Shown one piece after another: positions 43,878 to 60,244 of a stretch of DNA of 64,000 nucleotides. Position numbers and translations under genes: made by a program. The DNA is from Nitrospira sp. KM1 (GTDB lineage: Bacteria > Nitrospirota > Nitrospiria > Nitrospirales > Nitrospiraceae). The stretch spans positions 3,162,001 to 3,226,000 of the forward strand of contig NZ_AP022671.1 of NCBI RefSeq assembly GCF_011405515.1, written 5' to 3'. Each line of letters starts with the position of its first letter. The stretch's first letter is position 1. The notes under the pieces were generated by a model. The model saw only the letters and a program-made list of their open reading frames with translations. It searched no databases and was not told the DNA's origin.

Positions 43878-44390
43878 TTGACATCGTTACGATGGGTTGC
43901 AGTGCTTGCGGCGGCTCTCGTGTTTTCGCCTCTCATAGCCGTGGCGACGCACGAGGCCGACCATCGGTTCACTGTCGAAGGTTTTGTCTGTGGTCCTGAT
44001 GGAAAGGGAAGTGCTGACGCCGATGTCATGGTGAAGGATACCAAGATTTCCTACGGTCAAGTCGTAAAGACCGATGGAAACGGGTATTACAAGGCTACCT
44101 TTCACCTGCACAATGACAATCTTGGTGATCCGCTCCTCGTCGAGGCGAACGGACAGCAACAGGAGCAAAAAGTTCAGTTTGATCCCAAGGACCTGGAGTC
44201 GGAACGCAAAATTCAGGTCCATTTTGGGCAAGGATGTATTCGCGACGTCGGGGGGCCTCCGGTGTGGGTGTACGCGGGGCTCGGAGTCGGCGTTCTGGCA
44301 GTGGCAGGCATCATCGGGAAGAAGATGGTGCGTTCATGGCGGAAACAGGGTCAGAAGAGAGGAAAGTCTCAAGGTAAACGGAAGAAATAA
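43878..44390 (+). CDS. Exported protein with carboxypeptidase-regulatory-like domain and C-terminal anchor
   Basis: The 170-residue protein starts with TTG at 43878, which keeps a full signal peptide (VAVLAAALVFSPLIAVATHE). Residues 30-110 look like a small beta-sandwich of the carboxypeptidase regulatory type: FTVEGFVCGPDGKGSADADVMVKD and KTDGNGYYKATFHLHN. A transmembrane helix (about residues 134-152) and a very basic cytoplasmic tail follow (RSWRKQGQKRGKSQGKRKK). It is probably an inner-membrane protein facing the periplasm. It lies 200 bases before the electron-transfer operon and may be associated with it. Confidence 0.7.
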   Translation: MTSLRWVAVLAAALVFSPLIAVATHEADHRFTVEGFVCGPDGKGSADADVMVKDTKISYGQVVKTDGNGYYKATFHLHNDNLGDPLLVEANGQQQEQKVQFDPKDLESERKIQVHFGQGCIRDVGGPPVWVYAGLGVGVLAVAGIIGKKMVRSWRKQGQKRGKSQGKRKK

Positions 44391-44590: not shown

Positions 44591-45097
44591 ATGAAAATCA
44601 TTCAATGGGCTTTCTTGGCTGGAGTGGGATTGGCGTTTGCCGGCTGTGGTGGAGAGGGCGGCGGTGAAGGACCGATTGTTCCGCCTCCTCCTGCCCCGGC
44701 TGAATACGCGGACAAGCACATGCCGGCTGGTTGGTGGGCGGACGCGGCCAAAGTAGAAGAGGGGCGCAAGCTGTTCATCGGTGAAACCAATCCGGACGTG
44801 AACTGCGCAAGCTGCCATGGAAAAGATGGCAAGCCGGTCAAGGCCGGTGCGCGGGACTTTCGAAACGGCGAGCGGATGAAGCTATATTCAGATTCCGTGT
44901 GGTTCTGGCGTATCTCGGAAGGTGTACCAAACACGAAGATGAAAGCTTGGAAGAGCAAGCTCTCTGATGAAGATCGTTGGAAGCTCGTCCTCTTTGAACG
45001 GAGTTTTGGACTCTCCGGCAAGGCCTGGGATGCGGACAAGAAGCAATGGGCTGATGCGGGAACGGTCAAGGTCGCAGCGGCTGAGTCCGTGAAGTAA
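44591..45097 (+). CDS. Monoheme c-type cytochrome lipoprotein
   Basis: The 168-residue protein starts at ATG 44591 after aaaggagc. The lipoprotein signal ends FAGC, with Cys19 lipidated, and a Gly/Pro-rich linker follows. The heme site is C72-A-S-C75-H76, and Met117 in NTKMKAW is the probable sixth ligand. It is anchored to a membrane and faces the periplasm. It is the first gene of a ten-gene same-strand cluster containing bc-complex and bd-like subunits, and probably acts as electron acceptor or donor in that assembly. Confidence 0.9.
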   Translation: MKIIQWAFLAGVGLAFAGCGGEGGGEGPIVPPPPAPAEYADKHMPAGWWADAAKVEEGRKLFIGETNPDVNCASCHGKDGKPVKAGARDFRNGERMKLYSDSVWFWRISEGVPNTKMKAWKSKLSDEDRWKLVLFERSFGLSGKAWDADKKQWADAGTVKVAAAESVK

Positions 45098-45150
45098 TCG
45101 AAGCTGGCGGATCGAACACTCGTGACTGTAGTAGGAGGGCGGCGAGTATT

Positions 45151-46854
45151 ATGAAAACCTGGCAGCGCGGTCTCTTAGCATTGTTTGCGCTCGTGGCGTT
45201 GTGGGGAGGCACAGCCTATGCGCAGGCTCCCGGCGCCCCACCGGTTGAGTTTCCCTATACGGGAAACCGGACCGCCGTCTGGATCGTCGCCCAACTGCAC
45301 ATTCTCTTCGCCGGCTTTATTCTGGGCGCCCCGATCTTCGTCGTGATTTCCGAATGGCTCGGCTATCGGAAGCAGGATCCCCGGTACGACAGGTTGGCGA
45401 AGGAAGTCACCAAGGTAACCGTCATTTTGTACAGTATGACGGCGCTGACGGGTGGGCTGTTTATCTTTGTCCTCCTGGCCACCTATCCGCAATTCACGAC
45501 GTGGCTCATCAATCACTTCTTCATCGTGTTTGCAGTCATCTACCCGCTGCTCTTCATCGGGGAGACATTCGTCCTGTACATGTATTTCTACACCTGGGAT
45601 GCGTGGAAGGGGAATAAGAAAGCCCGTCATATCGCGCTCGGTGTGCTGTTGAACCTGATTGGAACGATTACGCTGTTCGTGATCGACGGGCCGACCTCGT
45701 TCATGAACACCCCCGTCAAAGCGGAGGGCATTTCGCCGCAAGAATTTCTTGCGACGGCCACGATCTGGGACAAGATTTTCAATTACAGCTGGATGCCTCT
45801 CAACTTGCACCGTCTTGTCGGGAATGTGACGTTCGGAGGATTCGTCGCCGGCCTCATCGCCGCCTACATGTACATGGGGGCGGACAAAGAGGAAGAGCGT
45901 TCCTACTATGACTGGATGGGGTTCGTCGGCAATCTAATCGGTGTCGGTGCGCTGTTGTTCCTTCCTTTCATGGGCTACCTCCTTGCCTACGAACTCTGTG
46001 ACTATGACGCCTCCATCTGTCCGTATATGATGGCCGATCAGCTCTCGATGTTCTTTGAAATGCAGGGCGCCATGATCGGACTCATCTTTTTGGCCAGCAA
46101 CTATTACATCTGGTTGAGCATGAAGCGGATCGAAGGCGTCGAGAAAGTCCGTATGACCATTCTCGCGCCTATCGTCATGATTGCGCTGCCTCTGATCATG
46201 ACCAAAGTCCTCACCGACTATCCGGCCCCGGATCCAACGTCGCTCGTCTTCTTGCTCCCGCTCCTCTTAGCGCCTGTCATCCTCGGCAGGTTCATTCCTG
46301 TGACAGTTTCCGCCCGCACCGTCATCAAAGTGGGATTCTTGATGGTCGTGGTCGGCAACGCCATCTGGATGACTCCCCACGGCTTTGTGCCAACGGGAGC
46401 GAAGCTCGTCGCCGAGCTGGAGTTGCCGTCCGACTGGAATTTTCTGGCCCTGATGCCGGCGAAAAACTCCGCAGCGTTCACGCTGGTGTTTGTCACCGTC
46501 GTCAATTATGTGATTTATAACCGGGCCATCAGCCAGGGGACCATTGTTTGGGGACGAATCGATTTCGTCTCACAGTTCGTCCTGATCTTCCTTGCATTCA
46601 GCGCGATTTGGACCATGGGATTGATGGGCGCCGTGCGCTCGCTCCTGCGGAAGTACTTCCATACATATAACCTGTTGCCCGATTTCACGGCGGAATCATT
46701 CACGCCGACATTATCCTATTCGGCCTGGTGGATTACTGCCATCACCGTCGTCTTTTACGGCGTCGTCAGCTTTGCGATTTTGGTCACCTTACGGGCATCA
46801 CATCCCAAAGACCACGTTCCGGAAGGGAGCCCCGTTCCTGCCGGAGCCAAGTAG
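45151..46854 (+). CDS. Cytochrome bd-like (CydA-type) membrane protein, copy 1
   Basis: The 567-residue protein has an N-terminal signal-like helix and then about 13-14 transmembrane helices. CydA-type features are His50 in VAQLHILFAGF (position of the heme b595 ligand), Glu138 in FIGETFVLYMYFYTWDAW (proton-path Glu region) and His220 in NLHRLVGNVTFGG (heme b558 ligand position). A long Q-loop as in canonical CydA is not apparent, and no cydB is present in the cluster. A tail ends HPKDHVPEGSPV. It is related to, but distinct from, true bd oxidase subunit I. Whether it reduces oxygen or only oxidises quinol or carries electrons is unknown. A second copy lies at 50800. Confidence 0.85.
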   Translation: MKTWQRGLLALFALVALWGGTAYAQAPGAPPVEFPYTGNRTAVWIVAQLHILFAGFILGAPIFVVISEWLGYRKQDPRYDRLAKEVTKVTVILYSMTALTGGLFIFVLLATYPQFTTWLINHFFIVFAVIYPLLFIGETFVLYMYFYTWDAWKGNKKARHIALGVLLNLIGTITLFVIDGPTSFMNTPVKAEGISPQEFLATATIWDKIFNYSWMPLNLHRLVGNVTFGGFVAGLIAAYMYMGADKEEERSYYDWMGFVGNLIGVGALLFLPFMGYLLAYELCDYDASICPYMMADQLSMFFEMQGAMIGLIFLASNYYIWLSMKRIEGVEKVRMTILAPIVMIALPLIMTKVLTDYPAPDPTSLVFLLPLLLAPVILGRFIPVTVSARTVIKVGFLMVVVGNAIWMTPHGFVPTGAKLVAELELPSDWNFLALMPAKNSAAFTLVFVTVVNYVIYNRAISQGTIVWGRIDFVSQFVLIFLAFSAIWTMGLMGAVRSLLRKYFHTYNLLPDFTAESFTPTLSYSAWWITAITVVFYGVVSFAILVTLRASHPKDHVPEGSPVPAGAK

Positions 46855-46912
46855 TCGCCGTATGATATGAATGGTTGGTGAGTAGACTTGAGCATTACGC
46901 ACGAGGAGTTTT

Positions 46913-47719
46913 ATGGGTAAGGCAATGTTGAAGATCGTCACGGGTTTGGTCATCGGTGTCGTGCTGTGGGTCGTCACAATGGCACTGGAATTCCCGCCGG
47001 TGTTCCGCTGGCTGTTTTTTGGCTATGCCATGCTGGGGACCGTCGTGTTTTTGATTCTCGACGCGCCGAATCTGAAGCCGATGAGCGGGGTCAAGGCGGT
47101 CGGGGCATTGCTGGTCTTTTACGCCGTCATGTGTACGGTCTACATCGCCGGAGCTTCATTGTGGCCGCAGTACGATCCGGAAGACGAAAAGGGAAAGATC
47201 GACAAAATCCTCAAGCCCAAACGCGCTGCGACTGAGCAAGGGAAGGCCGACGAGTTGATCGCCCGTGCCAAGGCGCTCGATGAGCAGGCCAAGGCATTGG
47301 CGGAACGGATCAAGGCGCTGGGCGGCGATCAAGCTTCCGGTGCTCAGGCGGCCGGGGGGCCGGGGGCCCCGCCCTCAACGACGGGTGCGGCCGGTGGCGA
47401 TATTCTCAAAATCGGTGAAGATCAGTGGCAACTGCAAGAATGTTACAACTGCCACAAGCTCAAGGGTGAAGGTGGAAAGAAGCGGGGTCCCGAGCTCGAC
47501 AATATCGGCAGCTACCTGACCGTCGACGATATCAAGCAGAAAATTCTCGATCCGAAAAGCTGGATGGCCGAAGGATTCGAGAAGGAGTTTGAAAAAGGCA
47601 AAATGCCGGACAAGTACAAGGACCTCATGGAAGAGAAGGACGTGGTGGCTCTTGCCACCTGGCTCGTGACCTTCAAGGATACGTCGGTGAACACGCCGAA
47701 ACCCATCAAGAAAAAATAG
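46913..47719 (+). CDS. Membrane protein with coiled coil and C-terminal cytochrome c domain
   Basis: The 268-residue protein starts at ATG 46913 after cgaggag. Three transmembrane helices (about 8-25, 33-50 and 62-80) are followed by a charged helical segment (92-137, Ala/Lys/Glu rich, likely coiled coil), a Gly/Ala/Pro linker (140-162) and a monoheme c domain with C177-Y-N-C180-H181. Met in GKMPDKYKD is a possible sixth ligand. I know no exact family for the whole protein. The Rieske gene starts one base after its stop codon, so it is probably a structural and electron-carrying part of the bc-type complex. Confidence 0.85.
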   Translation: MGKAMLKIVTGLVIGVVLWVVTMALEFPPVFRWLFFGYAMLGTVVFLILDAPNLKPMSGVKAVGALLVFYAVMCTVYIAGASLWPQYDPEDEKGKIDKILKPKRAATEQGKADELIARAKALDEQAKALAERIKALGGDQASGAQAAGGPGAPPSTTGAAGGDILKIGEDQWQLQECYNCHKLKGEGGKKRGPELDNIGSYLTVDDIKQKILDPKSWMAEGFEKEFEKGKMPDKYKDLMEEKDVVALATWLVTFKDTSVNTPKPIKKK

Positions 47720-47720
47720 C

Positions 47721-48653
47721 ATGCAGCCACAACTCAAATCCAAAGTTCGGTGTACGGATCGTGAAATCGGTGAAGTGACGAAGGTCGTCGTCGATCCGCT
47801 CTCGCACGAAATCAGCCACATCGTCGTCTCCATGAACGGAAGCGGCGAGCGTCAGGTCGCCATGGCTTCTGTCCGTCATGTGACGGAGGGAACGGTGGAA
47901 CTGGGGACGGCTTCGACGGACGTGTTGTCGCTTCCCCCGTTCAAGCGTGACGATTACGTCACCACGCACGAAGTCGAAATCGCCCATCTCGAGGAAAAAG
48001 TGCATGTGACCCCCGGCGAAGTGCTGGTGCCATTCCCCGAGCTGGAGAAGAACGTCAAGCGCCGGACGTTCTTCATGAACTTCACCCATGCCATCGGCTT
48101 CCTCATTGGGTTGCCCATCGCCTTCCCGATCCTTCGGTACCTCATGAAGCCGATGTATGTGCCGTTCGACAACAGTTGGCTCAAGATCGGTAATGTCGGC
48201 AAGATCAAACAAAACGATATCGGTGTCCAGTTCAAATACAAGCGCAAAGTCAAAGAAGCGTACATGCCGGAAGCCGAAATCGAAAAAAACGTCTGGATAC
48301 TGAAAGCCACGCCGGCCGTACTTGAACAGGTGTATCAAGGCAAGGACATGGAGTTCCGGAATGCGTCGGGTTTGCCCGTCTGGACCAATAAGAAAGACAT
48401 TCCCTACGTCGCGTTTTCCGGCAAATGTCCTCATCTCGGGTGTGGATACAAGTGGCGGCAGCATAAGGTGCTCGGTCAGGTGTTTCTCTGTCCATGCCAT
48501 TTGAGCATCTACGATGCTGCGGGAAAAGTACTCGACGGCCCGGCTCCGCGACCGCTCGATTCGTTGCCGATCAAAGTGTCGGCCGGCGGAGACGTCGAAA
48601 TCATCGACATGGAATTCAAGGCGGGCACCAAAGCCCAGATCCGGATCATCTAG
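47721..48653 (+). CDS. Rieske iron-sulfur protein with N-terminal PRC-barrel domain
   Basis: The 310-residue protein has an unusual layout. Residues 1-80 look like a PRC-barrel (VRCTDREIGEVTKVVVDPLSHEISHIVV). A transmembrane helix spans about 121-140, and then a Rieske domain with ligands C236 and H238 (CPHLGC) and C257 and H260 (CPCH), and disulfide cysteines C241 and C259. Because the PRC part precedes the helix it should lie in the cytoplasm, with the Rieske cluster in the periplasm. The stop TAG is directly followed by the ATG of cytochrome b. It passes electrons from quinol to cytochrome c. Confidence 0.92.
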   Translation: MQPQLKSKVRCTDREIGEVTKVVVDPLSHEISHIVVSMNGSGERQVAMASVRHVTEGTVELGTASTDVLSLPPFKRDDYVTTHEVEIAHLEEKVHVTPGEVLVPFPELEKNVKRRTFFMNFTHAIGFLIGLPIAFPILRYLMKPMYVPFDNSWLKIGNVGKIKQNDIGVQFKYKRKVKEAYMPEAEIEKNVWILKATPAVLEQVYQGKDMEFRNASGLPVWTNKKDIPYVAFSGKCPHLGCGYKWRQHKVLGQVFLCPCHLSIYDAAGKVLDGPAPRPLDSLPIKVSAGGDVEIIDMEFKAGTKAQIRII

Positions 48654-49766
48654 ATGGAACATTCGTCGATTCCAAGCACCCAGCCGACCGTCATCGAAAA
48701 GGTGGTGGCCTTTATTGACGAGCGGGTTGGCCTGAAGCAGATGCAGGCGAAGATGTTGAATGAGCCGGTCCCTGGGGGATCTCGCTGGGCCTACGTCTTC
48801 GGCTCGGTCCTGCTCTTCATCTTCATCATGCAGGCGCTGACCGGCATCTTGTTGATGTTCTACTACGTGCCGACTGCGGATCACGCCTATGCCAGCACGC
48901 AGTACATCATCCACGATGTGGACTATGGGTGGTTCCTGCTGAGTTATCACTTTTGGGGTTCAACCGCCATGGTCGTCTGCGTATTTGCCCATATGTCTCA
49001 GGTGTTTCTCTGGGGGGCATACAAAGCTCCCCGTGAAATGATCTGGCTTGTCGGCCTGGCATTATTCGGGGTCGTGATGGGATTCGGTTTCACCGGCTAT
49101 TTGCTCCCCTGGGATCAGCGCGCCTATTGGGCCACGACGGTAGGCGTCGAAATCATGGACAAGACGCCGGTTCTGGGCGACTTCATGGCCCGCTTCCTCA
49201 AGGGCGGTCCCACGCCGGGCCAGATGACGCTGAGCCGGTTCTTCGTCATCCATGTCATGATCTTGCCGGCCGCCTTGATGGGGCTGGCAGGCTTGCACCT
49301 CTTCCTCTTCCGGGCGGCGGGACCGGCCGGTCCGTTCCGTGGCTCCGTTGAAGAGATCAAGGCCAAGACGGATTACTTTTTCCCGCGTCAGATCTGGAAG
49401 GATATCGTCGGCATGGCCGTCGTGTTCGCGAGCATCTGCGCGCTCGCGTTCTGGGAGCCGGTCGTGCTCCTGGAGGAAGCAACGCCGGATCCCGGCGACT
49501 ATCATCCGGAACCGGAATGGTACTTCCTTTTCCTGTTCCAGCTGCTGCGGCTGAAGATTTTTTCTGGGGAGTTCGGTCAGTTCCTGGGCGCCATTGCCGT
49601 GCCGGGTGCATTCATGGCGTTGCTCGCGGCTTTGCCGTTCATCGATCGGGATCCCGAACGAAACATTTTCAAACGTCCGATCGCGCTGATCGGATGGATC
49701 GTCGTGATGGTCACCATTTTATTGTTTACCGTATCCGCAATCATCAACCGGGAATTCTTGGACTGA
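48654..49766 (+). CDS. Cytochrome b of a bc-type complex (b6 and subunit IV regions in one chain)
   Basis: The 370-residue membrane protein has the four heme-b histidines H99/H113 and H200/H215 (13 and 14 residues between pairs; the latter spacing is the b6-like one). The quinol-site motif PEWY is at 287-290 in HPEPEWYFLFLFQLLRLK. Both the N-terminal four-helix part and the C-terminal three-helix part (subunit IV region) are present, so the chain is complete but shorter than a mitochondrial cytochrome b. It starts on the base after the Rieske stop. It oxidises quinol with the Rieske protein. Confidence 0.94.
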   Translation: MEHSSIPSTQPTVIEKVVAFIDERVGLKQMQAKMLNEPVPGGSRWAYVFGSVLLFIFIMQALTGILLMFYYVPTADHAYASTQYIIHDVDYGWFLLSYHFWGSTAMVVCVFAHMSQVFLWGAYKAPREMIWLVGLALFGVVMGFGFTGYLLPWDQRAYWATTVGVEIMDKTPVLGDFMARFLKGGPTPGQMTLSRFFVIHVMILPAALMGLAGLHLFLFRAAGPAGPFRGSVEEIKAKTDYFFPRQIWKDIVGMAVVFASICALAFWEPVVLLEEATPDPGDYHPEPEWYFLFLFQLLRLKIFSGEFGQFLGAIAVPGAFMALLAALPFIDRDPERNIFKRPIALIGWIVVMVTILLFTVSAIINREFLD

Positions 49767-49792
49767 GGACGCCGCGCCGTGCGCCACAACCC

Positions 49793-50773
49793 ATGACCGA
49801 CGAACGGGATTCCATGTCGCCAACAAAAATCGGATTGCAGGTACTTTGGTCCACCTTCTGGACGGGGCTGCCGATCAAGCTGGCAGTTGCCGTGCTGTTT
49901 TTAGCGATGGGCATCATGCATTTCGAAGGACGGCTCGGCCTGGCGTTTTTGATGCTCCTTGCGAGCCCGGTCACCGTCTTCGCTCTCCCGGTGATCAGCG
50001 CGGCATTTGACTCTCATCTCGGTGAAGGCGCCGGGATTGCGCTCCTCTTCCTTATCTCTATCCCGGTCGACATCTGGGCATTTGGGGTGGTGAGCAGGAC
50101 GTTTTTTCTGGAGAAGTTCAGGAAAAATCCGCCGGACGGCCTTGGCTTGACGCTCTGGTGGAAGTCGGCCGTTGCCGGGGCGATTTTCCTCCCGATTCTG
50201 TGGTTCCTGGTCGGTACCGTGACATCGGCTTCGATCTCCATGTCCCACAGTTTGCTGGACATGGACATGTTGAAGGCCATTCCAGTCGCCGAGCGGATCA
50301 GCATCGAGCTCACCATTTGGGGGATGATCTCGACCACCGTACTATTGATTCTCCTCCTGATCGGCGTGTCAATCGTTGGACGCATCATTCGCAGCAAGGC
50401 AGCCACGGCCGGCCCGGCTCCGGAGAACTACCAAGGCATCGTGACCCGCTGGGACCTCATGCGTGTGCCTGCCGACCAAACCTTGATGCTGACGGCCATG
50501 ACGGGGGCAGGTGTGGCGCTGTCGTTGTTGTTCTGGTCGGTGCTTCCTGTCACGACTCCACATCCTCACGAGTGCTGCAAGAAAGAGGAAGTGAAAGCGC
50601 GTCCGGCCATCAGGCCCCTCGAATCCTTGAACAAGGACGAGAAGCTGATTGCCCAGCTGACCGCGCAACTGGATGCGCTTGAAAAGCAAAAAGCCGAGTC
50701 GGACAAAGACAAGACCAAGGGCAAACAGAAAGCGTCCAAAGAGACGGCGTCTCCAATTCAGAAGAAACCGTAA
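49793..50773 (+). CDS. Unrecognised polytopic membrane protein in the bc/bd-like cluster
   Basis: The 326-residue protein starts at ATG 49793 (ATG 49814 is an alternative), 26 bases after cytochrome b. It has about six to seven helices, for example residues 24-44, 46-64, 75-95, 120-145 and 172-195, then one near 238-255. A cysteine/histidine-rich HPHECC motif follows the last helix and looks able to bind metal. The C-terminal 60 residues are charged and helical (Lys/Glu/Gln rich, coiled-coil-like). I do not recognise a family. Its place between cytochrome b and the second CydA-like gene suggests a subunit of the same assembly. Confidence 0.7.
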   Translation: MTDERDSMSPTKIGLQVLWSTFWTGLPIKLAVAVLFLAMGIMHFEGRLGLAFLMLLASPVTVFALPVISAAFDSHLGEGAGIALLFLISIPVDIWAFGVVSRTFFLEKFRKNPPDGLGLTLWWKSAVAGAIFLPILWFLVGTVTSASISMSHSLLDMDMLKAIPVAERISIELTIWGMISTTVLLILLLIGVSIVGRIIRSKAATAGPAPENYQGIVTRWDLMRVPADQTLMLTAMTGAGVALSLLFWSVLPVTTPHPHECCKKEEVKARPAIRPLESLNKDEKLIAQLTAQLDALEKQKAESDKDKTKGKQKASKETASPIQKKP

Positions 50774-50799
50774 CTCAAGAGATCAATGAGGTGAGTGCC

Positions 50800-52647
50800 A
50801 TGCGACACCAGGGCGGAATGATTCAGCGGCTGCTCCGAGCCCTCGATGGTCCCGGCAGATGGCTTCCGGGTCTGTTGCTTGGCGCTGGGATTCTCGCGCT
50901 TCCCTCTCTGGGGTTTGCGGCAGAAGGGACCCAGGCCGGTCCGACCGAATATCGCGACATTCCGGGGATCGGCAGCCGGAATCTCGTCTGGATCATCGCA
51001 CAACTCCATCTGCTGCTGGCGGGATTCGTGCTGGGCGTTCCAATTTTCGCCTGGCTCTGCGAAGTCGTGGGCTGGAAGGGTGGGGAGAAACGGTATGACA
51101 AACTCGCCAAGGAGTTCACGAAGCTTCTGACGTCCGCCTATGCCACGACCGCATTGTTCGGCGGCATTCTCCTGTTTCTCCTGATCGCGTTTTACCCCAA
51201 ACTCATGAATTATCTGACGGATATTTTTTTCCCGTCGTTCATTTTCTATTGCATCCTCTTCCTGCTTGAGACGGCTACACTCTATCTCTACTGGTACGGG
51301 TGGGATGCGATGCAGGACGGCAACAAGAAGACCTTCCACATCTTCTTGGGCTTTCTCCTGAACTTTTTTGCCTTCTTTATCATGATCGTGCCGAACTCCT
51401 GGGCCACGTTCCAGGCCAGTCCGGTCGTGATCGCGGAGGGCACAGACCTCCAGCGAGCCTGGGCGGCGACCTGGAATCCCACCTGGTGGCCCGTCAACAT
51501 CCACCGGTTGATCGCCAACGTCGTGCTGGGCGGATACATTTGCGGCGCCTATGCGGGCATCCGATATCTGTCGGCGAGAAATGCAGAAGAGCGGGACCAT
51601 TATGACTGGATGGGATACGTCGGCAATTTTATCGGCGTCTTCGGTCTACTCCCGCTCCCGTTCGCCGGCTACTGGTTGATGCGCGAAATCTATCAGTACA
51701 ATCAGCAGATGGGCATCACCCTGATGGGCGGATTCCTCTCCTGGCTCTTCATCCTGCAGGCCATGCTGATCGGCGTGTTGTTCCTCGGGTCCAATTATTA
51801 TTTCTGGCTCGGGATCACGCATCGCATTCCGGGCTCCGAAATGAAATATCGCAAACCGATCATGACCATGCTGATCATCCTGCTTCTGTGTCTGGGAGTG
51901 TGGATGACGCCGCACTCGCTCGTCGCCAGCCTGGAGGAAGCGAGAAAGATGGGCGGGACGCACCATCCCCTGCTCGGGGTGTTCGGAGTCATGTCCGCCA
52001 AGATGACAGTGGCCAACCTCATGATTCTCGTCACGTTTATGAGCTTCATCATGTATTGGCGCGCGGGCAAACAGGAAACCGCCACGTGGGCCAAGGTGGC
52101 CAGGTCAGTCATGGGCGGAGTGCTTGTGCTTGCAGGTATCGCCGTGATCGTACTGGGTGTGTGGGGCTATTTCGTTCCGGCCATCATCCGCATCAATTAT
52201 TTCTCGACCTCGCAGGTGCTCATCGTACTGTTCGTCATGCTGACGATCACGCCACTGACGGCACTTCTGCTCAAGAGCGCGAAGACGACCACGGAGATGG
52301 TGTGGGGACGGATGCCGCCACGGGCCGGTTATGCGCTTGTATTGAATTCCGTCATGGTCATTCTTTTGATGACGCTGATGGGCTATGCGCGTTCGTCGTC
52401 ACGAGTTCATTGGCACATCTACGGTGTCATGCGAGACTCGTCGCAGTATGCTTTTTCACCGGCGCTCGGATATGCGGCCGCCTTCATGGCGTTGAATACG
52501 TTTCTCTTCTGCATGCTCGTGGCATTTATCTTCTGGGTCGCGACGATGGGTGACAAGGCCAAAGGCGGTCATACGAGTGACAAGGCTGAGCTGCCCCACG
52601 GCATTCCCGCCATGGCCGGCGGGGCGCCCGATCGTGACCGAGCATGA
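50800..52647 (+). CDS. Cytochrome bd-like (CydA-type) membrane protein, copy 2
   Basis: Started at ATG 50800, after tgaggtg, the protein has 615 residues. A signal-like segment (residues 22-41) precedes about 14 helices. The CydA-type residues match copy 1: His70 in IAQLHLLLAGF, Glu157 in FLLETATLYLYWYGWDA and His235 in NIHRLIANVVLGG. Copies 1 and 2 share the order of motifs over the first 300 residues (AQLH, GWDA/TWDA, HRL, YDWMGxVGN) and are clearly paralogues. Copy 2 is longer at the C-terminus. It also lacks a CydB partner. Function as in copy 1: quinol-linked electron transfer, with oxygen reduction unproved. Confidence 0.85.
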   Translation: MRHQGGMIQRLLRALDGPGRWLPGLLLGAGILALPSLGFAAEGTQAGPTEYRDIPGIGSRNLVWIIAQLHLLLAGFVLGVPIFAWLCEVVGWKGGEKRYDKLAKEFTKLLTSAYATTALFGGILLFLLIAFYPKLMNYLTDIFFPSFIFYCILFLLETATLYLYWYGWDAMQDGNKKTFHIFLGFLLNFFAFFIMIVPNSWATFQASPVVIAEGTDLQRAWAATWNPTWWPVNIHRLIANVVLGGYICGAYAGIRYLSARNAEERDHYDWMGYVGNFIGVFGLLPLPFAGYWLMREIYQYNQQMGITLMGGFLSWLFILQAMLIGVLFLGSNYYFWLGITHRIPGSEMKYRKPIMTMLIILLLCLGVWMTPHSLVASLEEARKMGGTHHPLLGVFGVMSAKMTVANLMILVTFMSFIMYWRAGKQETATWAKVARSVMGGVLVLAGIAVIVLGVWGYFVPAIIRINYFSTSQVLIVLFVMLTITPLTALLLKSAKTTTEMVWGRMPPRAGYALVLNSVMVILLMTLMGYARSSSRVHWHIYGVMRDSSQYAFSPALGYAAAFMALNTFLFCMLVAFIFWVATMGDKAKGGHTSDKAELPHGIPAMAGGAPDRDRA

Positions 52648-52727
52648 ACATTTCATCGTTCGATTATTTCTGCGTGATCGGGCCGGCTGATTGAGCCGGC
52701 CTGGTTGGACATTTTGAGCGAGGGATT

Positions 52728-53351
52728 ATGAGCGAAGTCGCAATGCTGCAGTTGATCGGGCTCTTGGTCGTCTGCACGGGAATCAGCATCCTGCTCTTCA
52801 TCCGTGCCCAGTTCGCCAGGGTCATCGGATTCGTGGCCATTGTCCTGGGCCTGTTTTCTCTGGTCGCGCTGGCCGTTCCTCAGATGGCGTCGCTGCCTCC
52901 CGCGGAGGAAAAGTTCGACATTGCCACCGTGAAAACCCCGACGGATATGGCGGCCATCGGTCAAAAGATCTTTTTCAGCAAAGGCCAATGCGCGCTCTGT
53001 CATTCCATCGGTCCGAGTGAATCAGCCCGCTGTCCGGACTTGAAAGGCATCGGCGCCAAGCTGAGCCGGGAATTCATCTTCGAGAGCCTCACGCAGCCGC
53101 AAGCGTATATCTACCTGGACTACCGGCACGAAGGCCCGCCGAAGGAGTACCCGGCGCGCATGCCGTACATCAACAAGAATCCGATCGGCCTCTCCAAGAA
53201 CGAGATCCTGTCCGTGATCGCATTCCTGCAGCAGATGAGCGGGGAGCCGATTTCCGTCAGTCCGTCAGAACTCGAAGTGCCGGGACAGTCTCCCGCCGCA
53301 CCGGTCAAGGCCGCGGTAGAAGTTCCTGTCACCGTCGCACACGCACGTTGA
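52728..53351 (+). CDS. Membrane-anchored monoheme cytochrome c
   Basis: The 207-residue protein starts at ATG 52728 after a gagggatt site. Two N-terminal helices (about 6-25 and 30-51) precede a cytochrome c domain with C88-A-L-C91-H92. The class-I-like fold continues with CPDLKGIGAKLSREFI, a possible Met ligand in ARMPYINKN and a final helix KNEILSVIAFLQQM. A Pro/Ala/Val tail follows. It lies between the second CydA-like gene and another cytochrome c gene and probably carries electrons on the periplasmic face. Confidence 0.9.
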   Translation: MSEVAMLQLIGLLVVCTGISILLFIRAQFARVIGFVAIVLGLFSLVALAVPQMASLPPAEEKFDIATVKTPTDMAAIGQKIFFSKGQCALCHSIGPSESARCPDLKGIGAKLSREFIFESLTQPQAYIYLDYRHEGPPKEYPARMPYINKNPIGLSKNEILSVIAFLQQMSGEPISVSPSELEVPGQSPAAPVKAAVEVPVTVAHAR

Positions 53352-53361
53352 GGAGGCACGT

Positions 53362-54081
53362 ATGGGTGGCCCATTAGTCAAACCCGTGATTCTGATCGGA
53401 GTGGTGTATCTGCTCCTGAAGTTTGTGGTGCCGAATATTCCAGGCTCCGCTCCGCTGCCATCCAGTCTGATCTTTCTGTACCTCATGCTGGTCACCTCCG
53501 GGATCGTGATCTTTGCCACGATGAGCGGCGAATCCAAGGATGCCTTTTGGGGACCGATTCAGCGATTCCTGACCGGCGAGAACATCGGCGCGTTGCAAAC
53601 GGCCCGCTACGGGGTCTTGATTCTCTTTCCGCTGCTCGTCGGTTGGCAGACCTACGGAAGCACGGCGGTCAGCGATCAGCCTCCGGCGGAAAACCGGACC
53701 ATTCATCCTGCGCCTCCCGGTGAATACACGGGCCTTTCAAACCCCGTCTCGAAGACTCCGGACAACATCATGCAGGGCAAGGGGTTCTATGCGGCCTTCT
53801 GTTCTCCGTGCCACGGCGGAAATTTCGATGGAAAGGGACCCGCGGCGCGCGGGTTCAATCCTCCTCCGGCGAATTTTTCCGATCCGACGACCATCGCCAT
53901 GCTTCAGGAAAGCTATCTCTTCTGGCGTATCAAGAAGGGCGGGGTCGGTCTGCCGATCGAGGGCATGCCCTGGAAATCCGCAATGCCCCGATGGGAAGTC
54001 GAACTGCCGGATGAATGGATCTGGAAGATCATCATGGGCGAATACGACGGAGCCCATCAGTCCCCGAGAACGTGGGAGTAA
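53362..54081 (+). CDS. Membrane-anchored monoheme cytochrome c, three helices
   Basis: The 239-residue protein starts at ATG 53362 after aggaggca. Helices at about 8-24, 35-54 and 82-98 are followed by a periplasmic cytochrome c domain with C147-S-P-C150-H151. The probable Met ligand is in EGMPWKSAMPRWE. The spacing to the neighbours is 10 bases upstream and 24 downstream. It is similar in layout to the cytochrome at 52728 but not a close copy. Confidence 0.9.
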   Translation: MGGPLVKPVILIGVVYLLLKFVVPNIPGSAPLPSSLIFLYLMLVTSGIVIFATMSGESKDAFWGPIQRFLTGENIGALQTARYGVLILFPLLVGWQTYGSTAVSDQPPAENRTIHPAPPGEYTGLSNPVSKTPDNIMQGKGFYAAFCSPCHGGNFDGKGPAARGFNPPPANFSDPTTIAMLQESYLFWRIKKGGVGLPIEGMPWKSAMPRWEVELPDEWIWKIIMGEYDGAHQSPRTWE

Positions 54082-54105
54082 CCAATCAGGTTGGATGAGG
54101 CATTT

Positions 54106-54942
54106 ATGACACGGGTAAAGCCGCGGCCAGTGACCACTTTCAAGATAGCGTCGGCAGGTGCAGCATTCGCATGCCTTCTGGCCGGAGCCGTTCCTGTGCT
54201 TGCGCAAGAAAGCGTTGCGGTTCGCGCCCCGTTGGCCAAAGGTGCGCTGCCGGTCGATGATCCAAACGCCGCTGCCTGGAGCAGCGCCCCGCAGGCGCAA
54301 TTCCCCATGTCGCCACAGGTACATTGGCAGAACCGTATCCAAGAAGTCACGGTCAAGGATGTCAAGGTCCGTGCGCTGCACGATGGCACACAGGTCGCGT
54401 TTCTGCTCGAGTATGAGGATCCCACGGAAGATCCGGACGATGCCGCTGCGCTCGAATTCATGGTCGGCGAGTTGAAAGCCCACTTCGCCCATGGCCAGCC
54501 GATGTCCCAGGTCGAAGGCGGTCCGGTGAACATCTGGTTCTGGAAGAATAAGGCGAACAAAGCCGTTGACATGAACGCCAAAGGGTTCGGCACGCTCAAG
54601 ACGCAATCCCATCAAGATGTGACGGCGAAGGGGGTGTACTCCAACGGAACATGGAAAGTGGTCTTCTCCCGTGCGCTCTCCAACGAGCATGTCGATGAAG
54701 ATACGCAGGTCAAGCCGGGAGAATTCATCAACATCGCTTTCGCAGTGTGGGACGGTAAAAAGAACGGCGCCGGTGAACTACAGGAAAAGGGGTCACAGAA
54801 AGCGGTCTCCTCCTGGTGGTATTTCCGTGCAGAGCCGCCACCGGATTACTCAGGCTATCTTTATGCGGCGATGGCCATTGCCGTGGCGGTCGGATTTCAG
54901 TTTGTCCTGATCCGCAAACTGAAGAAAGGGCAGTCAGCATGA
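54106..54942 (+). CDS. Heme-b binding protein of the ethylbenzene dehydrogenase gamma / NxrC-like family
   Basis: From ATG 54106 the 278-residue protein has a signal peptide cleaved near residue 33 (PVLAQ), a beta-sandwich domain (about 40-235) of the EB_dh type with DDPNAAAWSSAPQ, VRALHDGTQVAFLLEYEDPTEDP, VNIWFWKN and FINIAFAVWDGKKNG, and one C-terminal helix (about 248-270). Such proteins bind one heme b and are the electron-transfer (gamma) subunit of DMSO-reductase-family enzymes, including nitrite oxidoreductase. No molybdopterin subunit is encoded here, so it serves the bc/bd-like assembly instead. It overlaps the next start by four bases. Confidence 0.83.
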   Translation: MTRVKPRPVTTFKIASAGAAFACLLAGAVPVLAQESVAVRAPLAKGALPVDDPNAAAWSSAPQAQFPMSPQVHWQNRIQEVTVKDVKVRALHDGTQVAFLLEYEDPTEDPDDAAALEFMVGELKAHFAHGQPMSQVEGGPVNIWFWKNKANKAVDMNAKGFGTLKTQSHQDVTAKGVYSNGTWKVVFSRALSNEHVDEDTQVKPGEFINIAFAVWDGKKNGAGELQEKGSQKAVSSWWYFRAEPPPDYSGYLYAAMAIAVAVGFQFVLIRKLKKGQSA

Positions 54943-55952
54943 AGGCGGCAAGGCTTCAAGTCATGGGAGCGGTGGCCGGCCTGATCGGCGTGTGGGGTAT
55001 GGTCGCCGGTGGCTGCGCGAGCGAGCAGCAGAAAAAGGGGCACGAACTCTATGCCCATTACTGCCTGCATTGTCACGGAGAAAACGGCCGTCAGAACGAA
55101 GGGTTCAATTGGTCCTCGATGCCGGATCCCAAGCCGAAGGATTTGTCCAATAAGTCGGAGATGAGTACGTTCAAGGACGAGGACATCTTCAACACCGTGT
55201 CGCGCGACATGAAGGATACCAGCCCGGGCGGTGACAAGATCGGCGATGACGATTTCGCTGTCCCGACGATGCCGACCTTCAAGTACACGCTCTCAGAAGA
55301 GGAGATCTGGGCCATCGTCGGGTATGTGCGCACGCTTCACGGCATGAAGTTGGAATTCAAAGTCGAGGAGCGGAAGAAGGAGTTGGCAGAGGCGCTGAAG
55401 TCCGCCCAGACAAAGTTCGATGAGTCGAAGGCGGCCTATGAGGCGGCGGAAAAGAAAGCAAGCGAAGAAGCGGAAAAGAAAAGCGCCGCGCTCAAAAAAG
55501 ACGTCGATGTCGACGAGTCTTCCTATGCCAAAGAACAGGAAGCCATGGGCAAAGCGAAGAAAGAATTGGACGCGGCCCAGATGGCGGTGACCAATTTCAC
55601 GAGCAGACCGGGCAAAGGCACGAGCGTGGCCAGGCCGGATCTTCCTGTCAAAGGTGATCTGACGGCTGTGCAGGATCTTGGCAAGCGACTGTATTTCAAT
55701 AAGTATGGTTGCAACGGTTGTCACAGCATCGGCGAAGATGGCGGTAAAGTCGGTCCGGCTCTCGACCGTGCCGGATTCCGCCTCAACGGCACCTGGATCT
55801 ATCGATGGGTCAAGAATCCACAGGCGATGAAGCCCGAGACGCGCATGCCGGCCCTCGGACTCAGCGACGCGGATGCCAAGGCCGTGACAATTTATCTGGG
55901 AACGTTGCGTGCGCCGAGAGCCGAACCGGCGAGCGACAAACCCGCGAGCTGA
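54939..55952 (+). CDS. Diheme cytochrome c lipoprotein with central coiled coil
   Basis: The 337-residue protein starts at ATG 54939 (ATGA overlap with the upstream gene). The lipoprotein signal ends VAGGC, Cys26. The first cytochrome c domain has C42-L-H-C45-H46. A highly charged helical segment of about 80 residues (142-218, Lys/Glu/Ala rich) is probably a coiled coil. The second heme domain has C258-N-G-C261-H262 with Met in TRMPALGLSD. The coiled coil could span distance or mediate oligomerisation. It is the last gene of the cluster. Confidence 0.9.
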   Translation: MKAARLQVMGAVAGLIGVWGMVAGGCASEQQKKGHELYAHYCLHCHGENGRQNEGFNWSSMPDPKPKDLSNKSEMSTFKDEDIFNTVSRDMKDTSPGGDKIGDDDFAVPTMPTFKYTLSEEEIWAIVGYVRTLHGMKLEFKVEERKKELAEALKSAQTKFDESKAAYEAAEKKASEEAEKKSAALKKDVDVDESSYAKEQEAMGKAKKELDAAQMAVTNFTSRPGKGTSVARPDLPVKGDLTAVQDLGKRLYFNKYGCNGCHSIGEDGGKVGPALDRAGFRLNGTWIYRWVKNPQAMKPETRMPALGLSDADAKAVTIYLGTLRAPRAEPASDKPAS

Positions 55953-59128: not shown

Positions 59129-60244
59129 TCAAGCACTTACGTTCTTAGAAGAATCCTTCAAATCGGCAGGTGTTAATACAGTGTTAGAAAGGTAGGTAGA
59201 GAGCTTACCTGCAGCGGCAATCAAATCACTTTCTGCCACGCTGTTATATCGCTTCCACATCATCGGCGATTTGTGCCCGATGATCTGCATGGCCGTGGTT
59301 GTATCGACGCCTGCGCGTCTTAGGTTTGTGGCTGCGCAGTGTCTCAAATCGTGAAACCGTAAGTTCTCTATGCCTGCCTTCTTGCTAGCCGTCTTAAATG
59401 ACCTTTTGACTTCCCTCACAGGATTTCGCTGATACACGAATACGTGTTTGTGTTTTAGGTCTCTGACCTTGGATAGGTCCATCAAGGCGGTCTTCACATC
59501 ATGAGTCATCGGCACCTGACGGGGTTTGTTGGTTTTTGTATCAACACCCCGTAGTGTAATGATCCCTCGATGCAGGTCTACTCGATCCCAGGTCAAATTT
59601 AAGATTTCGCCTAAACGCTGACCTAGATGGTAGGCAGTTAGCAAGATGGGCTTCAAATGAGGGGCAGAGCATTCGTATAGCCTGCTCCACTCTTCAGCAC
59701 TTAACACTCTGTCTCGTTCATTGTTCGGGTTAGGAATGGGTACAAGGCTAGCAGGGTTGACCATGAGCAGACGCTTTCGTCTCGCTACGTTCAAGCAATG
59801 CTTCAGGACGATGTGATCATTGTTAATGGTCTGAAGCTTTACCGCATCACCATTACTCTTCTTTCGCTGTGCCCTGTACTCCTCTACATGTTCAGGAGTA
59901 ATTGCTGTTAGCTCCTTGTTTCCAAAGAACGGTATCAGCTGTAACTGGACTATGTTAATTCGGTCCTTAAGAGACTTGAGCCGTAGAACCTCCTCTAGTG
60001 CTAGGTAGGTCTCTCCCCACTCCTTAAATGTGAGCGGTTTGGCTGCGTCGCTCTTGATCATGCCCTTCATCAATTCAGTCTTGATAAGAGCTTCCTGTTG
60101 TCTAGCAGCAGTCCGGTTATGACTTCCGACCTTCCACCGTCGCAGCTTTCCTCCTCCTTTTCCATTTGCTAGCGATATTGTCTTACCATCATCAATGATA
60201 GAGAACTCCACATAATAACTATCCTTCCGTTTAGTCAGCCCCAT
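59129..60244 (-). CDS. int: Tyrosine recombinase / integrase of an integrated element
   Basis: The 371-residue protein has an N-terminal arm-binding region, a SAM-like core-binding domain (about 70-160) and a catalytic domain with the R-H-R-H-Y set: R210 (HLGQRLGEIL), H298 and R301 (FHDLRHCAATNL), H324 (IIGHKSPMMW) and nucleophile Y333. It is convergent with tRNA-Thr, which ends five bases from its stop codon, the classic arrangement of elements inserted in a tRNA 3' end. Its start overlaps the xre gene by 14 bases. It should catalyse insertion and, with an AlpA/Xis-like factor, excision. Confidence 0.94.
   Translation of the reverse strand: MGLTKRKDSYYVEFSIIDDGKTISLANGKGGGKLRRWKVGSHNRTAARQQEALIKTELMKGMIKSDAAKPLTFKEWGETYLALEEVLRLKSLKDRINIVQLQLIPFFGNKELTAITPEHVEEYRAQRKKSNGDAVKLQTINNDHIVLKHCLNVARRKRLLMVNPASLVPIPNPNNERDRVLSAEEWSRLYECSAPHLKPILLTAYHLGQRLGEILNLTWDRVDLHRGIITLRGVDTKTNKPRQVPMTHDVKTALMDLSKVRDLKHKHVFVYQRNPVREVKRSFKTASKKAGIENLRFHDLRHCAATNLRRAGVDTTTAMQIIGHKSPMMWKRYNSVAESDLIAAAGKLSTYLSNTVLTPADLKDSSKNVSA

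Follow-up and report, generated by a model that had tools for sequence, protein, structure and literature searches.

Nitrospira are among the main nitrite oxidizers, and we know of no biochemical demonstration so far of O2 reduction by Nitrospira without a heme-copper oxidase. The locus studied here, in Nitrospira sp. KM1, encodes a bc complex pair, c-type cytochromes and two bd-like proteins in a single run of genes. It raises the question of whether these products make up one electron-transfer module that ends at oxygen, and whether they assemble into one particle. The window, that is, the whole stretch of DNA that was analysed, is 64,000 nucleotides long and corresponds to 3162001-3226000 of a closed, 4.51 Mb genome.

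The initial annotation left it open how well the assembly is described. The cluster and its supercomplex proposal have been known since 2019, when Mundinger et al. (PMC6606698) described it in N. moscoviensis as CIII_1, bd-like_1, bd-like_2 ("CIV"), alt_nxrC_1 and cytochromes c, and put forward a III-IV supercomplex in contact with NXR. All genes of the region are strongly transcribed in N. moscoviensis on nitrite (PMC6606698). The N. moscoviensis locus has the same eleven genes in the same order, with 65-94% identity per gene; the two loci are orthologous and nothing essential differs, g6 being the least conserved part. Four features described below, namely the fusion of g7 with g8, the variation of bc and MrpD genes in place, the short g6 and the conserved g0, were not found reported in the open literature, supplements and subscription papers aside.

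The gene run and its conservation

The cluster occupies window positions 44591-55952 on the + strand and is an unbroken run of eleven genes, g1 to g11, in which each gene is spaced from the next by -4 to 80 bp. All the genes of the initial annotation were found, on one strand and in the order given there, although that annotation counted ten where its own list had eleven. In Pfam and NCBIfam searches of each cluster protein, five came out as c-type cytochromes, two as CydA-like, two as a Rieske/cytochrome b pair and one as an EbdC/NxrC-like heme-b protein; the remaining one is an unknown membrane protein. The claim of six heme-c sites held: g11 encodes two CxxCH sites and g1, g3, g8 and g9 encode one apiece, which makes exactly six, and every one of them is conserved across 19 orthologous clusters. 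Shuffled versions of the same proteins gave a mean of 0.004 sites and a maximum of 1 (2000 shuffles). Promoter-like matches at the cluster were not above chance. Hopanoid/isoprenoid-type genes flank the cluster on one side and a convergent UbiA-like gene on the other; about 3 kb past the cluster, a frame at 59129-60244 on the - strand resembles, by eye, a tyrosine-recombinase integrase.

Relatives were found by a search keyed on the Rieske protein alone, which gave close matches throughout the order plus two more families of the class. Gene order was kept in 18 of 18 relatives' stretches, two of them with a shortened g6. The full eleven-gene order was present in 16 stretches from two families; the remaining pair (L054 and L055), from two further families, had ten genes in order and a short replacement for g6. 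A second survey, keyed on g2, covered 80 public loci: 55 were complete, and 25 were cut by a contig end, a stretch limit or a run of N. Apparent synteny breaks in two loci (L132 and L133) proved to be N runs. The complete loci include those of Nitrospira moscoviensis NSP M-1 and Ca. N. defluvii. Gene order is thus conserved far beyond chance. Loss of synteny in relatives had been named as one observation that would refute the initial reading; the order is kept across four families, and there is good support for a conserved gene unit that joins bc, c-type cytochrome and bd-like parts in one module.

Loci in sister families show how the unit varies. In families f5 and f8 the neighbours of the g7-g8-g9-g10 core are a pair of MrpD-like proteins and a bc complex that is b6f-like and split. 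The two MrpD/NuoM-like ion-pump proteins are encoded between g1 and a fused bd-like protein (L184:5826-9110, L183:10707-14126), and so take the stretch that holds g2 to g6 in Nitrospira. In a third family, f15 (L056 and L190), the PRC-Rieske/cytochrome b pair and the homologs of g7-g8-g9-g10 are on separate contigs. The presence of the core beside a different bc complex in f5 and f8 suggests that bc genes became associated with it more than once or were exchanged in place. Because the core occurs with two kinds of bc complex, or without one on the same contig, we take the core to be the oxidase module, beside which bc modules have been placed. A related system is TO_1/TO_2 of Ca. Manganitrophaceae, for which complex-III-like components and a possible bifurcation have been discussed (PMC9040806) and with which our cluster has in common a bd-like protein, c-type cytochromes and a periplasmic heme-b protein. 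TO_2-like loci (L183, L184, L187) share homologs of g1, g7-g8, g9, g10 and g11 with the window cluster, but differ in that two MrpD-like proteins replace g2 to g6, g7 and g8 are fused, and the split b6f-like bc complex is downstream.

The bc module

The bc module consists of g4 and g5 and, probably, g3, all on the + strand. The g4 product (47721..48653) has a PRC-like N-terminus, one TM helix and a Rieske [2Fe-2S] domain. Its initial designation as PRC-Rieske stands for the Rieske part (6.6e-9); the PRC match, at E 0.0085 and 16.5 bits, fell short of the cut-off of 21.2 bits. The Rieske residues C236, H238, C241, C257, C259 and H260 are invariant in the 19 clusters, and C236, H238, C257 and H260 follow the C-x-H plus C-x-x-H ligand pattern of bc/b6f complexes. 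The g5 product (48654..49766) is a cytochrome b in which a b6-like part is fused with a subunit-IV-like part (Pfam Cytochrome_B 2.3e-47, Cytochrom_B_C 9.6e-9). Its four heme-ligating histidines (H99, H113, H200 and H215) and E288-W289-Y290 of the PEWY Qo motif are likewise invariant. Since both proteins retain every expected ligand without exception, and g5 its PEWY motif as well, g4 and g5 likely belong to a working bc complex.

The g3 product (46913..47719) has N-terminal TM helices, a probable coiled-coil and a C-terminal monoheme cytochrome c domain with the heme site CYNCH (Pfam Cytochrom_C 3.4e-8); C177, C180, H181 and M231 are invariant in the 19 clusters. As an adjacent, TM-anchored monoheme protein, g3 is, by position, a candidate for the cytochrome c1/f-type subunit of the bc complex.

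The CydA-like proteins

Both CydA-like proteins match Cyt_bd_oxida_I, over their N-terminal ~240 residues only, with scores above the curated cut-off of 26.2. The product of g2 (45151..46854, + strand; bd-like_1) has 567 residues and about 11-14 TM helices, and matches over residues 40-285 (3.5e-22, 79.0 bits); that of g7 (50791..52647, + strand; bd-like_2 or "CIV") has 618 residues (2.5e-19, 69.6 bits). The two were profile-aligned with 31 canonical CydA sequences, and the alignment reaches only the N-terminal ~240 residues. The roles of the residues compared are established knowledge for E. coli cytochrome bd-I. H19, E107 and H186 of E. coli CydA correspond to H50, E138 and H220 of g2 and to H73, E160 and H238 of g7, and all are invariant in 19 orthologs. 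The quinol-loop residues K252 and E257 (E. coli numbering) are absent or not conserved in both proteins. E99 is replaced by I, V, L or A in g2 and by a hydrophobic residue or Tyr in g7, where the replacement is alignment-dependent. The GWxxxExGRQPW motif with E445 is missing from both. The M393 position is not recognisably kept, in an alignment whose C-terminal half is weak. Both proteins have an invariant M..K pair at the place of canonical M393 (M435/K438 in g2, M401/K404 in g7), but the region is too poorly aligned for ligand assignment. In addition, g7 carries an invariant H391-H392 pair that its paralogs do not have, and this pair may be what the copper/heme suggestion for bd-like_2 in the literature (PMC6606698) refers to. 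The AF2 model of g7 was poor (pLDDT 54) and was left out of the reasoning on ligand geometry; its only PDB matches with E<=0.001 were CydA chains.

A canonical CydAB quinol oxidase was considered and rejected: E99 is replaced, GRQPW is absent, M393 and E445 are not kept (in a weak C-terminal alignment), and Pfam and NCBIfam searches found no CydB match among the cluster genes, nor did the g6 model give a fold match with E<=0.001. Taking the bd-like parts as working bd oxidases is not supported, several catalytic-site residues being missing. What the two proteins do fit is the OR-N class, with a CydA domain, an N-terminal H/E/H core and no quinol-binding residues. The OR-N type CydAA' (OR-N1 plus OR-N2) of the cytochrome bd superfamily is credited to Murali et al. 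2021 as cited in PMC12342949 and PMC10839748, which assign these proteins to OR-N CydAA' oxidase. The likeness extends to the presence of two paralogs, one presumably NIDE0901-like. In our tree, which was built without published OR-N reference sequences as anchors, g2 and g7 fall in two separate clades; by the N1/N2 labels of the literature and by position, g7 is presumably the NIDE0901-like OR-N2 protein. Missing quinol residues had already been noted in related bd-like proteins (PMC3578206). A solved OR-N structure was not found in the PDB, and we know of none elsewhere, nor of an OR-N enzyme that has been purified.

The g7-g8 fusion and the cytochromes

Besides g3, four genes on the + strand encode c-type cytochromes. 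The g1 product (44591..45097) is a monoheme lipoprotein (lipobox C19, heme site CASCH; Cytochrome_CBB3 1e-8) in which C19, C72, C75 and H76 are invariant in the 19 clusters. The g8 product (52728..53351) is a TM monoheme cytochrome (CALCH; Cytochrom_C 1.7e-7). That of g9 (53362..54081) is a two-TM monoheme cytochrome (CSPCH; Cytochrome_CBB3 2.4e-7) whose sequence resembles the monoheme cytochrome subunit of alternative complex III (6lod_E, 6f0k_E). The g11 product (54939..55952), the start of which overlaps the g10 stop as ATGA, is a diheme lipoprotein with NCBIfam cytochrome matches (lipobox C26, CLHCH and CNGCH); C26, both CxxCH sites, M111 and M303 are invariant in the 19 clusters.

One polypeptide combines g7 and g8 in families f5 and f8 and in Nitrospira sp. 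RCA. The fused genes are those of L072 and L183-L187; they lie at L072:10491-12887, L183:7791-10235 and L184:9141-11648, the others being in L185, L186 and L187. Only clear g7-g8 fusions were counted, and an in-frame g6-g7-g8 frame in L110, which in part looks like an assembly error, was left out. The tree gave no support for acquisition of the L072 fusion by transfer. Because the two are fused in relatives, there is strong evidence, at the level of gene structure, that the cytochrome c g8 would work on the CydA-like g7. The lost quinol residues, the fusion and the absence of a heme-copper oxidase (see below) together point to cytochrome c as the probable direct electron donor to g7. Among the loci examined, no fusion joining the bc part to the bd-like part was found.

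g10, g6 and a probable twelfth gene

The g10 product (54106..54942, + strand) is an EbdC/NxrC-like heme-b protein with a signal peptide and a C-terminal TM helix, of the alt_NxrC_1 type. It matches EB_dh (PF09459; 1.6e-22, 81 bits against a cut-off of 33.3) and TIGR03477, the type-II DMSO reductase heme-b subunit (1.6e-31), as well as the Kuenenia NXR subunit C (7b04_C, 1.8e-16) and EbdC (2ivf_C, 4.7e-14). In the window genome g10 is encoded away from nxrAB.

The g6 product (49793..50773, + strand) is a membrane protein of ~6 TM helices with a charged tail. It has no Pfam or NCBIfam match, and its AF2 model (pLDDT 68.5, pTM 0.55) has no PDB match with E<=0.001. In L054 and L055 the g6 slot holds a short one-TM protein with a charged tail, which is similar to g6 at its C-terminal end (L054:7340-7800, L055:7440-7850, minus strand); the large N-terminal part of g6 is absent.

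Upstream of g1 lies g0 (43878..44390, + strand), whose product has a signal peptide, a CarboxypepD_reg-like fold with a weak CarboxypepD_reg match, and one C-terminal TM helix. In 71 loci a g0 homolog precedes g1 on the same strand at a distance of no more than 1.5 kb; in L183 the homolog lies within the bd-like/b6f cluster itself. The g0-g1 gap is 200 bp and co-transcription is uncertain. Probably g0, which is absent from the list in the initial annotation, is a twelfth cluster member encoding an extra subunit.

NXR and oxidases in the carrier genomes

NXR was searched for with the genome's own NxrA and NxrB as queries (E<=1e-50 and E<=1e-20, respectively), TIGR03479 being a poor NxrA marker here. 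The window genome has three near-identical NxrB genes and several NxrA genes, and is thus a Nitrospira-type nitrite oxidizer. It has no COX1 homolog; only 5 of 37 cluster-bearing genomes had a COX1 match over most of the model. Six bd-like Pfam matches and one canonical CydA were found in the window genome, and this quinol-type CydA is the only other oxidase seen there. With no heme-copper oxidase, the nitrite oxidizer would otherwise have no cytochrome c oxidase. Elsewhere in this genome (C1:2315000-2331000), nxrAB adjoins another bd-like gene, 43% identical to g7.

Two genomes with the full cluster, G163 and G157, both draft MAGs that are 97-98% complete, gave neither NxrA (E<=1e-50) nor NxrB (E<=1e-20). 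NXR therefore cannot be the cluster's only partner. A third genome, G110, was ruled out as NXR-free by an NxrB at 98%; this closed 3.6 Mb relative has no NxrA at E<=1e-50, possibly through an assembly artefact or gene loss.

A model for the cluster and its alternatives

Our preferred reading, to which we give a probability of roughly 0.55, is that the operon encodes one cytochrome-c-centred electron-transfer module in which an OR-N-type oxidase is joined to a b6-type bc complex. The core of the module would be g7-g8-g9-g10. Periplasmic electrons, from NXR in nitrite oxidizers, would be received by the heme-b protein g10 and the cytochromes g9, g11 and g1, and the cytochrome c g8 would pass them to the CydA-like g7. 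Together g7 and g2 would form the OR-N-type CydAA' oxidase that reduces O2. The attached bc complex would consist of the g4 Rieske protein, the g5 cytochrome b and, probably, the g3 cytochrome c, with g6 as a scaffold or adapter. With low-potential donors such as formate, hydrogen or storage compounds, the bc complex would run forward, from quinol to cytochrome c. The initial annotation had named quinol oxidation as one of the combined functions. As the main direction it is not supported: in current models electrons from nitrite come in at cytochrome c and flow to quinone in reverse (PMC8407350), and since the electrons enter there, on nitrite the bc complex would run mainly in reverse, driven by the pmf from cytochrome c to quinone, and supply quinol for reverse complex I.

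Whether the module is also one physical assembly is another matter. There is a substantial chance, somewhat short of even, that the bc complex and the OR-N oxidase, the latter with its cytochromes, are independent of each other, making two or more complexes that are kept in one operon only for co-regulation and linked by a diffusible cytochrome c. Separation of the bc pair from the g7-g10 core in f15, the different bc types of different families and the lack of any bc/bd fusion all fit that arrangement. It sits less well with the interleaved order of bd-like protein, cytochrome c, Rieske, cytochrome b, g6, bd-like protein and cytochromes, which is kept without exception in the loci examined, and with the fact that bc genes adjoin the core in two different forms. 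Assembly of the products into a single supercomplex is a reasonable but tentative proposal, less likely than not. The same holds for its fullest form, a single particle whose b6-type bc complex would share bound cytochromes and an NxrC-like input with a cytochrome-c-fed CydAA' oxidase.

The function of the bd-like proteins and the role of NXR also allow other readings. O2 reduction by g2 and g7 is not assured, as residues of the E. coli di-heme site are missing: E99 and the E445 motif are gone, and the Met393 position is not recognisably kept. The two proteins could instead extend the bc complex as a membrane part that reduces quinone or translocates protons. The whole would then be a device for reverse electron transport akin to alternative complex III, with O2 reduced elsewhere. 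The loss of E99, E445 and the GRQPW motif, the MrpD-like ion-pump pair that in f5 and f8 lies where Nitrospira has g2 to g6, and the likeness of g9 to the alternative complex III cytochrome are all in keeping with such a device, which was raised for related bd-like proteins in the Nitrospina genome paper (PMC3578206). We nevertheless think it unlikely, since known quinol-site residues are lost too, and since the window genome, with no heme-copper oxidase and a quinol-type CydA as its other oxidase, would then be missing a cytochrome c oxidase. Slightly less improbable is a cluster dedicated to NXR, as its specific docking and respiratory partner through g10 as a membrane NxrC. This was proposed for N. 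moscoviensis (PMC6606698) and agrees with the match of g10 to Kuenenia NXR subunit C and with the many carriers that are nitrite oxidizers by NxrA/NxrB; against it, G163 and G157 carry the full cluster with no detected NxrA or NxrB, draft MAGs though they are, and alt_nxrC_1 transcripts are well below those of nxrC_2 (PMC6606698).

The theme of the cytochrome-c-centred module has a precedent. In the cytochrome bcc-aa3 III-IV supercomplexes of Actinobacteria, a bc complex and a heme-copper terminal oxidase are wired by a bound cytochrome c. The cluster would repeat the combination of bc complex, oxidase and cytochrome c, but here the oxidase would be bd-like. If the single particle were real, it would be a III-IV supercomplex whose oxidase is of the bd type instead of the heme-copper type, and electrons entering at about +0.4 V would be divided, some going downhill to O2 and some uphill to quinone at the expense of the pmf. 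The fusion of g7 with g8 and the lost residues sharpen the oxidase hypothesis towards a cytochrome-c-fed enzyme with an altered di-heme site. In sum, the cluster would carry nitrite electrons via heme proteins to oxygen, with quinone receiving a part of them, and it is the best candidate for O2 reduction by Nitrospira without a heme-copper oxidase.
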